Virus record (IMG/VR): IMGVR_UViG_3300009085_000072
Coordinates: 1-30,553 of that record
Strand: one strand, 5' to 3'
DNA from: a virus
DNA length: 30,553 nucleotides
Below are positions 2,152-9,613 of this stretch, one piece after another. Positions within the stretch are counted from its first letter, which is position 1. The number at the start of each line of letters is the position of its first letter. The notes below the pieces were generated by a model. The model ran no database searches. It was not told the origin of the DNA and saw only the letters and a program-made list of their open reading frames with translations. The translations under genes were made by a program, and so were the position numbers.

Positions 2152-2290
2152 GCTAACGGTTTGCGGCTTTGCGAAGGCAAGGGATTAGAAGCACTAAACT
2201 TTAAATTAAGTACAAATGATTGATAGAAATACAAATGTTCAAATAACCGATGAAGCCCTTGCTTTTGCAAAACCGATGTTAGCAGAAGTG
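2152..2290. repeat. Long palindromic repeat, copy 1 (cassette boundary)
   Basis: About 135 bases from GCTAACGG to GTTAGCAG. Inner arms TTTGCGAAGGCAAGGG (2168-2183) and CCCTTGCTTTTGCAAA (2256-2271) pair 14 of 16; the two mismatches are G-T, so an RNA copy would pair fully. Outer arms GCTAAC and GTTAGC also match. The left part and central region (ACTAAACTTT... ACAAATGA... ATAGAA) align base by base with copy 2 at 3023-3160. The architecture resembles an integron attC site but is longer. Confidence 0.75.
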
Positions 2291-2821
2291 CCTTTAAAGT
2301 GCTGTTCAAAATGCAACACAGAAAAGAGTATAAATGATTTTCCTATTGTTTACGGACATAAAAGAAAAGACGGAACAAAAAAACAAAGATATCACAGCCA
2401 ATGTAGAGAATGTAGATACTCTATTTGTAAAAAATGGTTTGATAAAAATGAAGGTTATAGCACAATTAAAAAAAAGGAATGGGATGTAAAAAACAAAGAA
2501 TATGTTACCGATTATAAAAAAAACTATAAAAAAGAAAATGCGGATAAAGTAAAACAATGGAAAAAAGACTGGGATGGTAAAAATAAGGAACACAGGCTTC
2601 AATATAAAAAAGATAACCCACAGCCAAAAGACAAAGTAAGACAATGGCAAAATGCCACAGATAAAAAAATGCGTGAAGAATTAAAAGACTGCTATGTTAT
2701 TTATACTTTATCAAAAAGAATTGGGAAAAAAGCGGAATTTATAAGACAATATCCTGAATTAATAGAAACACAAAGATTAATAATTAAAACACAAAGATTA
2801 TGCAAAACATCACAGAATTAA
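2276..2821 (+). CDS. Zinc-finger protein related to HNH endonuclease N-termini, lacking the HNH part
   Basis: From the ATG at 2276 (inside the right arm of repeat copy 1) the protein has 181 residues; an ATG at 2216, inside the repeat, would add 20. CSKC (Cys10, Cys13) and CREC (Cys43, Cys46) form the four-cysteine domain usually found in front of phage HNH nucleases, but no HNH residues follow. The middle is Lys/Tyr/Asp-rich, with repeated KNKEY- and KKENADKVKQW-like stretches. The C-terminal 45 residues (ending RLCKTSQN) resemble a domain common in flavobacterial phage proteins. Likely DNA-binding. It is the first gene of cassette A and overlaps the next by 22 bases. Confidence 0.65.
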   Translation: MLAEVPLKCCSKCNTEKSINDFPIVYGHKRKDGTKKQRYHSQCRECRYSICKKWFDKNEGYSTIKKKEWDVKNKEYVTDYKKNYKKENADKVKQWKKDWDGKNKEHRLQYKKDNPQPKDKVRQWQNATDKKMREELKDCYVIYTLSKRIGKKAEFIRQYPELIETQRLIIKTQRLCKTSQN

Positions 2822-3028
2822 GAACAAGCCTTAGTGATAATTACACTAAAATGAAAGCTGGTAAAATGGGTTTAAATGTTGGCAAGGAATTAGCCAATAC
2901 AGCAGGAAAAATCATCAACTCTTTAAAAGTCGAATTAGAATATAATTCTATGATGGATATTAAAGAAGAAATTGATTTCCTTAAAAAGTCGCCAAAGGTT
3001 TAGGGTGTCGCTTGGCATTTCTGCTAAC
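2278..3028. mobile_element. Cassette A: two-gene unit bounded by inverted repeats
   Basis: The unit starts with GTTAGCAGAAGTGCC (2278-2292) and ends with GGCATTTCTGCTAAC (3014-3028). These are inverted repeats matching at 14 of 15 positions, the single difference being a G-T pair. It contains the zinc-finger gene and the 67-residue gene. The ends are specific to this unit and differ from those of cassette B, while the sequence between units is shared. No transposase or integrase is encoded. Confidence 0.5.
2800..3003 (+). CDS. Small conserved helical phage protein
   Basis: A 67-residue protein that begins inside the end of the zinc-finger gene (22-base overlap), indicating coupled translation. 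The sequence ELRTSLSDNYTKMKAGKMG followed by KELANTAGKIINSLKVELEYN is a pattern I recall from short proteins in Bacteroidetes phages, often beside proteins ending like the upstream one. Predicted all-helical. The two genes together make up cassette A; the function is unknown. Confidence 0.65.
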   Translation: MQNITELRTSLSDNYTKMKAGKMGLNVGKELANTAGKIINSLKVELEYNSMMDIKEEIDFLKKSPKV

Positions 3029-3160
3029 GGTTTTACGCTTGGCGAAGAAGCGGATTTAGAATTACTAAACTTTCAATATAGCACAAATGACAAATAGAAT
3101 TACAGAACTTGAACATAGCACCGAACCCGCTTTTTTGCCAAACGTGTGTTATGTGAAGTG
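3023..3160. repeat. Long palindromic repeat, copy 2 (cassette boundary)
   Basis: Inner arms TTGGCGAAGAAGCGG (3039-3053) and CCGCTTTTTTGCCAA (3127-3141) match at 13 of 15; both mismatches are G-T. The centre (ATTACTAAACTTTC, GCACAAATGA, AATAGAATTACAGAACTT) corresponds to copy 1. The left edge GCTAAC belongs to the end of cassette A, and the right edge GTTATG to the start of cassette B. No gene of its own; this fills the gap between genes at 3003 and 3190. Confidence 0.75.
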
Positions 3161-3607
3161 TTTTCACTTTAACTATTAATTCTTATAAAATGAAAAAAAT
3201 AAAACAATTATACGAAAATTCAAAATCAGCAAAAGTTGGTTCAACCTGTAAATGTCCAAGTTGCGGAACTGAATTTGTAAAAAATAATTACCAACAAGCA
3301 TTTTGCAAATCCAAGAATGGAACAATTTGCAAGGACAAGTATTGGAATACAGTCACACCAGAAAAACGAAATAATACAACTCGTATATCTCCTGCAAGTG
3401 CAAGTTTTATGGCTTCGAGATACGACCATTTAAAGCCAAGTATTGTTGGAAGTGTAGAGAAATTTCAAGGATATACAAGTGAGGGTTATAGAATTTGGGA
3501 TGGCGTTGCATATAATGAGTGGGATGAAGCAGTTTATGACGTTGACCCATACAATGACACCCATCCATTTGATTTAGATAATGGGTCTTCTTAACATTTC
3601 ACATAAC
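3148..3607. mobile_element. Cassette B: single-gene unit bounded by inverted repeats
   Basis: Starts with GTTATGTGAAGTGTT (3148-3162) and ends with AACATTTCACATAAC (3593-3607), again inverted repeats matching 14 of 15. It contains one zinc-ribbon gene. A small hairpin (AAGTG-TTTT-CACTT, 3156-3169) sits in the leader. After the right end only a short remnant, TACTTGCTAACACC, is present instead of a full third repeat, suggesting the array ends or was trimmed here. Confidence 0.5.
3190..3594 (+). CDS. Zinc-ribbon hypothetical protein (cassette B cargo)
   Basis: A 134-residue protein with CKCPSC at residues 20-25, then a single Cys at about 39 and another at about 47, in the setting QQAFCKSKNGTICKDKYW. 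This resembles a small zinc ribbon. The rest is rich in Tyr, Asp and Trp with an acidic C-terminus (DVDPYNDTHPFDLDN). I do not recognise a named family. It is the only gene in cassette B and its stop codon overlaps the right inverted repeat. It may be a DNA- or protein-binding accessory factor. Confidence 0.65.
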   Translation: MKKIKQLYENSKSAKVGSTCKCPSCGTEFVKNNYQQAFCKSKNGTICKDKYWNTVTPEKRNNTTRISPASASFMASRYDHLKPSIVGSVEKFQGYTSEGYRIWDGVAYNEWDEAVYDVDPYNDTHPFDLDNGSS

Positions 3608-3641
3608 TACTTGCTAACACCTATAAATGTATTACAAAACT

Positions 3642-3824
3642 ATGAAAACACTTGTAAAGACTAAAGTAATTCGTATTTCTGAAACTCAATTAGCCACACT
3701 TCAAAAAATGAAATCATACAATATTGATACTGGTAGATTCATTAGAGAAGCTATTGCTGAAAAAATTAAAAGAGAATATAAAGACTTAATTCCTAAACCT
3801 AAAAAAGAATATCGTCCTTTCTAA
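3642..3824 (+). CDS. Ribbon-helix-helix transcription regulator
   Basis: A 60-residue protein from the ATG at 3642; an ATG at 3627 would add five residues. The order is a basic strand (KTKVIRISE), helix (ETQLATLQKMKSY), turn (NIDTG), and second helix (RFIREAIAEKIKREY), the layout of MetJ/Arc ribbon-helix-helix repressors, which bind as dimers with the strand in the major groove. The C-terminus is Lys/Pro-rich. Two direct repeats spaced 11 bases start at its stop codon, just before a promoter, a natural site for autoregulation or control of the next operon. Confidence 0.75.
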   Translation: MKTLVKTKVIRISETQLATLQKMKSYNIDTGRFIREAIAEKIKREYKDLIPKPKKEYRPF

Positions 3825-8272: not shown

Positions 8273-8767
8273 ATGAAGGTATGTTTTAAATGTAATGAAG
8301 AAAAGCCATTGTTGGAATTTTACAAACATTCTCAAATGGCAGACGGACACGTAAATAAATGCAAAATTTGCAATAAATTAGACGTTAAAAAAGATTATTA
8401 TAGAAAATCTAGTGATTCTATTTTTGTTGAAAATGAAAGAATTAGAGGCAAAGAAAAATATCATAGACTTAACTATAAAGAAAGACAAAAGGATTTGAAC
8501 AAAAATAAGCCATGGAAACATAATCAAATTTATAAAAATTTAAGTAGAAAATTTAAAGTTCCAAAAGGGTTTGAATTACATCATTGGAATTATAACAATG
8601 ATTTTTTAACAGATGTTATGATATTAAAAATTAAAGAACATAGACAAGCACATACTCATTTAGTTTTAGATGAAGTATTATTAATTTTTAAAACTAAAGA
8701 CGGTTTATTATTAGATTCAAGAGCGAAACATATTGCTTTTTTAATTGATAAAGGAATTAACTTCTAA
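8273..8767 (+). CDS. HNH-type endonuclease with N-terminal zinc finger
   Basis: A 164-residue protein. N-terminal CFKC (Cys4, Cys7) and CKIC (Cys30, Cys33) form the usual zinc-binding domain. The HNH-like core is ELHHWNYNND (His103, His104, Asn107/109) followed by a helix with His123 and His127. Such enzymes nick or cut DNA and commonly behave as free-standing homing endonucleases in phages. The gene has its own promoter and terminator-like stem, independent of its neighbours, as expected for an inserted selfish gene between SSB and replication genes. Its zinc domain resembles the one in cassette A. Confidence 0.78.
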   Translation: MKVCFKCNEEKPLLEFYKHSQMADGHVNKCKICNKLDVKKDYYRKSSDSIFVENERIRGKEKYHRLNYKERQKDLNKNKPWKHNQIYKNLSRKFKVPKGFELHHWNYNNDFLTDVMILKIKEHRQAHTHLVLDEVLLIFKTKDGLLLDSRAKHIAFLIDKGINF

Positions 8768-8838: not shown

Positions 8839-8930
8839 GTTTTGGTGGATTCAATGCTATTTAAGAAATTTTTAATTATCCTTTTGGGAGTAGTTGCCAC
8901 CACAACGAAACCAAAGGGATTTTTTATTTT
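8839..8930 (+). promoter_or_regulatory. Leader with terminator and alternative antiterminator pairing
   Basis: Terminator: ATCCTTTTGG (8878-8887) pairs with CCAAAGGGAT (8911-8920), ten pairs including one G-T, with an inner GTTG/CAAC pairing, followed by TTTTTATTTT (8921-8930). Alternative: GTTTTGGTGG (8839-8848) can pair with CCACCACAAC (8897-8906) at nine of ten positions, opening the inner part of the terminator. The transcript may therefore be a stand-alone RNA of about 90 bases or a switch controlling the GIY-YIG gene. Confidence 0.55.
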
Positions 8931-8935
8931 ATATT

Positions 8936-9613
8936 ATGATAGGAATTTATAAAATTACTTCTCCAACTAAAAGAATTTATATTGGACAAAGTGTGAATAT
9001 CGAAAAAAGATTTATAGATTATAAAAAATCTTTAAAAAGGCAACAAATTAGATTATATAATTCTATTAAAAAATATGGTTATAATAATCATAAATTTGAA
9101 ATACTATGCGAGTGTTCAGAAAAAGAACTAAACAATTTAGAAAGATATTATCAAGATTTATATTCTGTTTTATCTAAAAATGGATTGAATTGTAGATTAA
9201 CTTGTTCTGATGAACGTTCTGGAAAATTAAGCGTTGAAACTATTGAAAAATTAAGAAATAAAGATTTTAATTATCTTATTGGAAATAATTTTAGAAAAGG
9301 AATATTACATAGTCAAGAAATAAAAAATAAAATTTCAATTACATTAAAAAATAATGCTAAAAAAAAAGACTATGTAAATTCAATGACTGGTAAATTTGGA
9401 GATTTGAATCCTTTTTTTGGTAAAAAACACAGCAAAGAATCTTTAAAAAAAATGAAAGAAAAGCCAAATTCAAAAATAGTTTTAAATACTGAAAATGGAG
9501 TTTTTCATTATTCTATTAAAGAAGTTTCTGAAACTTATAATTTATTGTATTCACCTTTAAAATGTAGATTAAATGGTAAAAGTAAAAATAATACTAAATT
9601 CATAATTTTATAA
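8936..9613 (+). CDS. GIY-YIG homing endonuclease with NUMOD motifs
   Basis: From the ATG at 8936 the protein has 225 residues; a TTG at 8894 would place the start inside the terminator stem. The GIY-YIG core is clear: GIY at 3-5, YIG at 15-17, Arg25 and the metal-binding Glu69 (NNLERYYQ). Two NUMOD3-like DNA-binding modules follow (around residues 117-140 and 155-177, the latter with NPFFGKKHSKESLKKM), and the C-terminus looks like a NUMOD1 helix-turn-helix (YSIKEVSETYNL). This is the I-TevI-like free-standing homing endonuclease architecture. Its stop TAATGG shares an A with the next start. Confidence 0.85.
   Translation: MIGIYKITSPTKRIYIGQSVNIEKRFIDYKKSLKRQQIRLYNSIKKYGYNNHKFEILCECSEKELNNLERYYQDLYSVLSKNGLNCRLTCSDERSGKLSVETIEKLRNKDFNYLIGNNFRKGILHSQEIKNKISITLKNNAKKKDYVNSMTGKFGDLNPFFGKKHSKESLKKMKEKPNSKIVLNTENGVFHYSIKEVSETYNLLYSPLKCRLNGKSKNNTKFIIL

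Follow-up and report, generated by a model that had tools for sequence, protein, structure and literature searches.

The viral DNA that we analysed here (IMG/VR record IMGVR_UViG_3300009085_000072, 30,553 nucleotides; hereafter the window) very probably carries an integrase-less, CALIN-like array of two integron-type cassettes that belong to a Bacteroidota type of integron. Two attC-like sites are present and a profile search found no PF00589 protein in the 30.5-kb record, which may be a fragment; this matches the usage of CALIN for at least two attC sites with no integrase nearby. The units belong to a large cassette system that extends to about half of the sampled Bacteroidota genomes and is apparently undescribed; in the open-access literature searched, no description of Bacteroidota-wide integrons was found. 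Features of the array are listed in Table 1.

Table 1. Features of the cassette array and its docking site in the window
Feature	Position	Strand	Remarks
Cassette A, mobile unit	2154..3028	+	attC-like site and two ORFs, R'' arm at end
attC-like hairpin site A (TAACGG...CCGATGTTA)	2154..2281	+	covariance model, covarying stem, DNA fold
ORF A1, 201 aa	2216..2821	+	start codon within attC-like site A
R' arm of cassette A (GTTAGCAGAAGTGCC)	2278..2292	+	pairs with 3014-3028, 14/15 and one G.T
ORF A2, 67 aa	2800..3003	+	function unknown
R'' arm of cassette A (GGCATTTCTGCTAAC)	3014..3028	+	pairs with R' arm
Cassette B, mobile unit	3025..3607	+	site and one ORF, R'' arm at end; anatomy as cassette A
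attC-like hairpin site B	3025..3151	+	R1 match; 73% identical to site A
R' arm of cassette B (GTTATGTGAAGTGTT)	3148..3162	+	
ORF B, 134 aa	3190..3594	+	phrog_8162 (unknown function); weak HNH-endonuclease-like match
R'' arm of cassette B (AACATTTCACATAAC)	3593..3607	+	
Fixed docking (attI-like) site of phage (TAACTACTTGCTAAC)	3604..3618	+	in front of conserved gene
Conserved phage gene beside docking site	3627..3824	+	phrog_25647, weak DUF6290

A first-pass annotation of this DNA had described two gene units, each bounded by its own inverted repeat. Both repeat pairs were found where it had placed them, with 14 of 15 positions in Watson–Crick pairs and, at a position common to both units, one G.T wobble. 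Considered within the window, these repeats are a weak signal: eight 14/15 repeats lying 300-1000 nt apart occur in 6 kb, compared with 1.7 and a maximum of 10 in 60 shuffles. This statistic was undecisive and it is comparative data that settle the reality of the repeats. The 15-mers are the outer arms of imperfect palindromes of ~126 nt, and the boundaries originally proposed, with units starting at 2278 and 3148, had to be moved outwards since the palindromic site travels with the unit. Relatives of cassette A in other phages (L316, L318, L319 and L321) have 92% identity to exactly 2154-3028, from TAAC to TAAC, between unrelated flanks, which indicates that the mobile unit consists of a site plus its gene or genes. 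The match to a further relative (L317) stops at a contig end, and another (L320) has 2263-3028 in common with the window. The joints of cassette A fall within the TAAC at 2154-2157 and 3025-3028, such that the neighbouring units are joined to each other within TAAC, and the right joint of cassette B, the TAAC at 3604, is the point where homology to related phages begins. ORF A1 opens with a leader encoded from within site A (MIDRNTN..FAKPML) and matched no family in Pfam, NCBIfam or PHROG; searches with the cassette A and B proteins, covering 397 and 299 genomes from a single bacterial family and run without a positive control, gave no match, and no cassette was seen in phage and chromosome alike.

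Both palindromes resemble attC sites. A covariance model (R1), itself built on the same kind of site, scored 128.6 bits for site A (2146-2291) and 131.6 bits for site B (3017-3161). Folded as single-stranded DNA, site A was more stable than expected (z = -2.6), and site B on its own gave a weak signal (z = -1.44). A pattern for the 5' half of the sites matched 98 viral DNA stretches, nearly all with the same anatomy, and gave at least 118 matches in bacterial genomes, almost all of them Bacteroidota; IMG/VR contigs may include host DNA. Alignment of 56 diverse sites revealed a stem of 23 pairs with 95.6% of cells paired, compensatory double changes at 11 of these pairs and a conserved unpaired spacer; the covariation score was 0.371, as against 0.099 for shuffled alignments and at most 0.07 for slid versions. 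Several stem pairs are G.T in almost all sequences and the outer arms likewise have a fixed G.T, and hence good folding is confined to one strand. For chromosomal arrays this is the strand opposite the genes, which is also the case for the attC bottom strand of integrons. The sites thus display the hairpin anatomy of attC, an imperfect palindrome with R and L stems, and the joints fall at TAAC(G)/(C)GTTA, which is compatible with G/TTA; the RRRY of GTTRRRY is not conserved as such. Rfam holds no family for the sites, and a gapped pattern for the site centre, probably too strict, had no match in viral contigs. Matches to the site pattern also occurred in contigs labelled Chlorobaculum, Limnohabitans, Sphingomonadales, Lacticaseibacillus and Klebsiella (L122, L155, L158, L183 and L202), some of which may stem from faulty binning or be chance matches.

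To the right of the array lies a conserved gene whose product looks ribbon-helix-helix-like and to which 70 loci are related. In about 60 phages homology to this gene begins at the TAAC at 3604, which is kept in 59 of 63 related phage loci, and 50 different units are docked to the left of it. For 45 of these 50 units, an R' of their own (GTTA followed by the 5 nt of that unit) lies within 3 kb upstream; a control with swapped ends gave a mean of 2.1 and a maximum of 7. Relatives of the gene in L246, L254 and L296 have no TAAC at the expected junction, and these phages possibly never had the docking site.

Unit-specific ends were also found in arrays at large. Among 89 distinct units, each bounded by two sites, the first 4 nt after GTTA matched the unit's own other end in 49, compared with 4.8 expected when ends were swapped; the total of matches was 436 of 712 (252 +/- 11.6 expected), a value reached in none of 5000 shuffles. 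The two arms of one array site matched each other in only 15 of 317 cases. Own ends that match, together with facing array arms that do not, are what a circle would leave if opened inside its site. The proposal that the ends are inverted repeats specific to each unit is borne out by these data and those from the docking site and, to judge from the sequences, each unit behaves as if it had once been a circle and had been opened in its single palindromic site, with clean gain and loss. What did not hold is the suggestion that this geometry goes beyond integrons: matching of a cassette's own R' and R'' is the integron arrangement, here extended to ~15 instead of 7 nt.

Bacteroidota chromosomes contain the counterpart of the phage array. 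R1 sites were detected in 137 of 296 sampled Bacteroidota genomes, often tens per genome, and cluster in same-strand arrays; site counts from this model are lower bounds. TIGR02249 matches XerC/D in every genome and was therefore replaced, as a test of presence, by a profile (A3, E <= 1e-60) for an IntI-related class of tyrosine recombinases, which detected this class in 95 of the 296 genomes. Sites and integrase occurred together in 81 genomes and were both absent from 145 (odds ratio 15, Fisher P = 2.4e-21); at the threshold used, 56 of the 137 site-bearing genomes were without the integrase. A single geometry, with the array 3' of the gene and sites on the opposite strand, was found for 18 of the 22 integrases that have a listed site no more than 12 kb away; Flavobacterium silvisoli (G010:C13) has ~24 sites after the integrase gene and Pelobium manganitolerans (G011:C2) ~19 beside it. 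A conserved CATATA..AAG/TTA lies 48-243 bp after the stop codon of most integrase genes and in six of seven linked loci its GTTA is followed by bases matching R'' of the first detected site. As the R' of the first detected cassette lies at this motif, we marked it as attI-like. Integrase, attI-like site and cassette array, the combination that defines an integron, therefore occur together in these chromosomes.

The Bacteroidota integrase is related to IntI. It scored 207-222 bits against TIGR02249 (cut-off 265), 201-219 against NF040815 (cut-off 220) and 167-193 against Xer families (cut-offs 330-335), placing it outside the Xer families; in a tree the Xer rows grouped apart on a long branch, as a clade with 100/100 support. 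Placement of IntI among the Bacteroidota recombinases in this small tree was marred by long branches and weak inner support and was not used. The residues R, K, H, R, H and Y are kept as in IntI, the SPxDxL C-terminus is common to both, and the predicted structure (pLDDT 80, pTM 0.52) has IntI4 (PDB 2a3v) as its best solved match, followed by archaeal XerA. The additional domain of IntI near patch III was missing in all 11 Bacteroidota integrases aligned, which are ~40-45 residues shorter than IntI at this point. As this domain is held to be defining for an integron integrase (PMC9668308), we have not filed the protein as an IntI. On present evidence it would work like one, and its linkage to the arrays suggests that it recombines these sites. 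The first-pass interpretation is supported in part: in Bacteroidota chromosomes attC, an attI-like site and an IntI-like integrase make the system an integron-type one, with a divergent integrase.

The cassettes might instead be moved by another recombinase, either XerC/XerD of the host or a phage-encoded integrase like that of Unahavirus, in the manner of Xer-dependent modules. Xer proteins are present in all hosts, and every Unahavirus phage encodes a single generic tyrosine recombinase (66 bits). Set against this, it is the IntI-like class that is linked to arrays and has the attI-like site, and no PF00589 protein was found in the window record or in the three 36-40-kb records that carry relatives of cassette A. 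To our knowledge, long, covarying, unit-specific arms are not those of a dif-like site. We judge this explanation improbable. The empty PF00589 search of the phage record means that a recombinase would have to act in trans, as had been foreseen in the first-pass annotation, and come from the host.

Phages of Flavobacterium psychrophilum provide direct comparisons of arrays. On the right side of the corresponding TAAC, seven such phages have 98-100% identity; on the left side most of them differ. FPSV-D15 and FPSV-D17 are identical throughout. Between the cultured phages FPSV-D15 and FPSV-D35 both flanks are 100% identical, and the difference is one unit with a clean joint, an additional 390 bp adjoining the fixed site in FPSV-D35, so that related phages lacking one unit do exist; at the joint only TAACGT (6 bp) is in common. 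Units u2-u6 recur in differing orders among five phages, with arrays of u4-u3-u5-u6-u7, u4-u3-u8-u9-u5-u10, u4-u3-u8-u9-u5-u10-u12 and u11-u2-u4-u3-u6, and a fifth, parsed less completely, of u1-u2-u3-(u2 inside longer stretch). An own R' was found in 11 of 12 units, 10 at 122-128 nt from the unit start and one at 67 nt.

These phages also bear on whether ordinary homologous recombination between phages could shuffle units via their similar sites, without the sites being substrates of a recombinase. Similarity among sites is 70-95% over ~126 nt, neighbouring sites in FPSV-D35 reach 94% identity over 128 bp and the phages are mosaic, all of which would favour such exchange. However, the change between FPSV-D15 and FPSV-D35 ends on 6 bp, at a fixed site that has no homology to the cassette sites, unit ends match their own other end rather than the arm of the array partner, the stems covary, and in bacteria a recombinase gene is linked to the sites. 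We judge homologous recombination improbable. Finally, dispersed palindromes are common and the window-only statistic was undecisive, but REP/MITE-like repeats or terminators that merely lie between phage genes would have neither unit-specific ends, nor 50 different units at one fixed docking site, nor clean presence/absence and identical unit boundaries in relatives, and we give this reading almost no weight. In its simple form, the repeat/terminator reading is refuted by the 6-bp joint and the unit-specific ends, on which we also rejected simple homologous recombination.

Movement of integron-type cassettes can be envisaged as follows. Each cassette comprises one ~126-nt attC-like site and its gene or genes. 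The site, when single-stranded, would fold into a hairpin whose outer arms are cassette-specific (R'' ..NNNNTAAC, R' GTTANNNN..), and this folded strand would be the substrate of a tyrosine recombinase acting within TAAC(G) (CG/TTA on the other strand). A cassette circle opened there would carry R' and R'' at opposite ends, and would be joined either to a neighbouring cassette or to the fixed docking site, the TAAC at 3604. The enzyme would come from the host, with the IntI-like integrase of Bacteroidota chromosomal integrons as the best candidate. Hairpin folding, circular forms, enzyme activity on the sites and the action of the host enzyme on phage sites are all predicted from the patterns described above.

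Phage and chromosomal cassettes differ in orientation and content. Genes lie opposite the folding strand in 46 of 47 chromosomal units and on it in 40 of 42 phage units. Given this flipped arrangement, the pools of phage and chromosomal cassettes may be separate, and another enzyme may be in use. In 52 of 119 phage sites versus 16 of 159 chromosomal ones, a frame leading into the cassette gene opens at an ATG within the site, adding an N-terminal leader (..FAKPVL.. or ..FCQTRV..); ORF 2216-2821 is the example in the window and others are found in L005, L012 and L018. Six of ten sampled phage cassette proteins matched DNA-methylase families and one more had a weak methyltransferase match; cassettes rich in DNA methyltransferases were seen in L028, L038, L041, L043, L053, L062 and L099. 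This richness suggests that phage cassettes carry exchangeable anti-restriction genes. Defence-like proteins, an AbiP2-type reverse transcriptase among them, are encoded in chromosomal cassettes.

Phage CALINs have already been described, for example in Polaribacter phage P12002L, one attC site of which was recombined by IntI1 in Escherichia coli (Qi et al. 2023, PMC9892861). Phage CALINs of this kind are attC-type cassettes in virulent phages without an integrase, as here. The P12002L genome has the R'/R'' geometry and gene orientation of the window phage and differs in the central sequence of the site, which scores just 23 bits with R1. The fixed docking site, exchange of units among near-identical phages and the Bacteroidota-wide link to an integrase appear to go beyond that description (PMC9892861). 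The chromosomal system resembles sedentary chromosomal integrons, such as the Vibrio cholerae superintegron, in having an integrase, an attI-like site, a long same-strand array, a site 3' of the gene (46 of 47) and cassette-specific R'/R''. Unlike in those integrons, the integrase has no additional domain, has an extra N-terminal module and reads in the direction of the cassettes, and the sites have longer unit-specific arms and another consensus. Archaeal integrons also have attI directly downstream of the integrase gene, whereas archaeal IntI proteins retain the additional domain (PMC9668308). For Bacteroidetes proper, IntegronFinder 2.0 yielded nothing but In0 elements and one complete integron, that of Salinibacter (PMC9024848).

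Taken together, we think it rather likely that Bacteroidota possess their own class of integron, present in about one-third of genomes and characterized by an integrase without the additional domain, a TATA-rich attI downstream of it and attC-like sites with long unit-specific arms. In this joint reading, the class has been overlooked because searches for IntI commonly require the additional domain, and phages tap the same machinery via a fixed docking site and a separate, flipped pool of cassettes, whose sites supply a start codon and leader to a protein that is often a DNA methyltransferase. Integrons are the best-known bacterial device for gene stockpiling and shuffling, and a widespread system of this type in Bacteroidota would alter views of how far integrons reach and what an integrase needs. 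Exchange of genes such as DNA methyltransferases by lytic phages that have no recombinase becomes testable, with FPSV-D15 and FPSV-D35 as a ready-made natural experiment. Chromosomal arrays meanwhile carry defence genes, as in Flavobacterium silvisoli, where the first gene past the attI-like site (L151:2144-3670) encodes the AbiP2-type defence reverse transcriptase (702 bits).

In an array of Pedobacter arcticus, another reverse transcriptase (L176:6325-7779) adjoins a site and, judged by eye, looks like a group II intron protein; group IIC introns are known to target attC sites. Elsewhere in the window, an ORF at 8894-9613, which contains MIGIYKITSPTKRIYIGQSVNIEKRF, resembles a GIY-YIG homing endonuclease and lies near an endonuclease VII-like ORF at 8273-8767.
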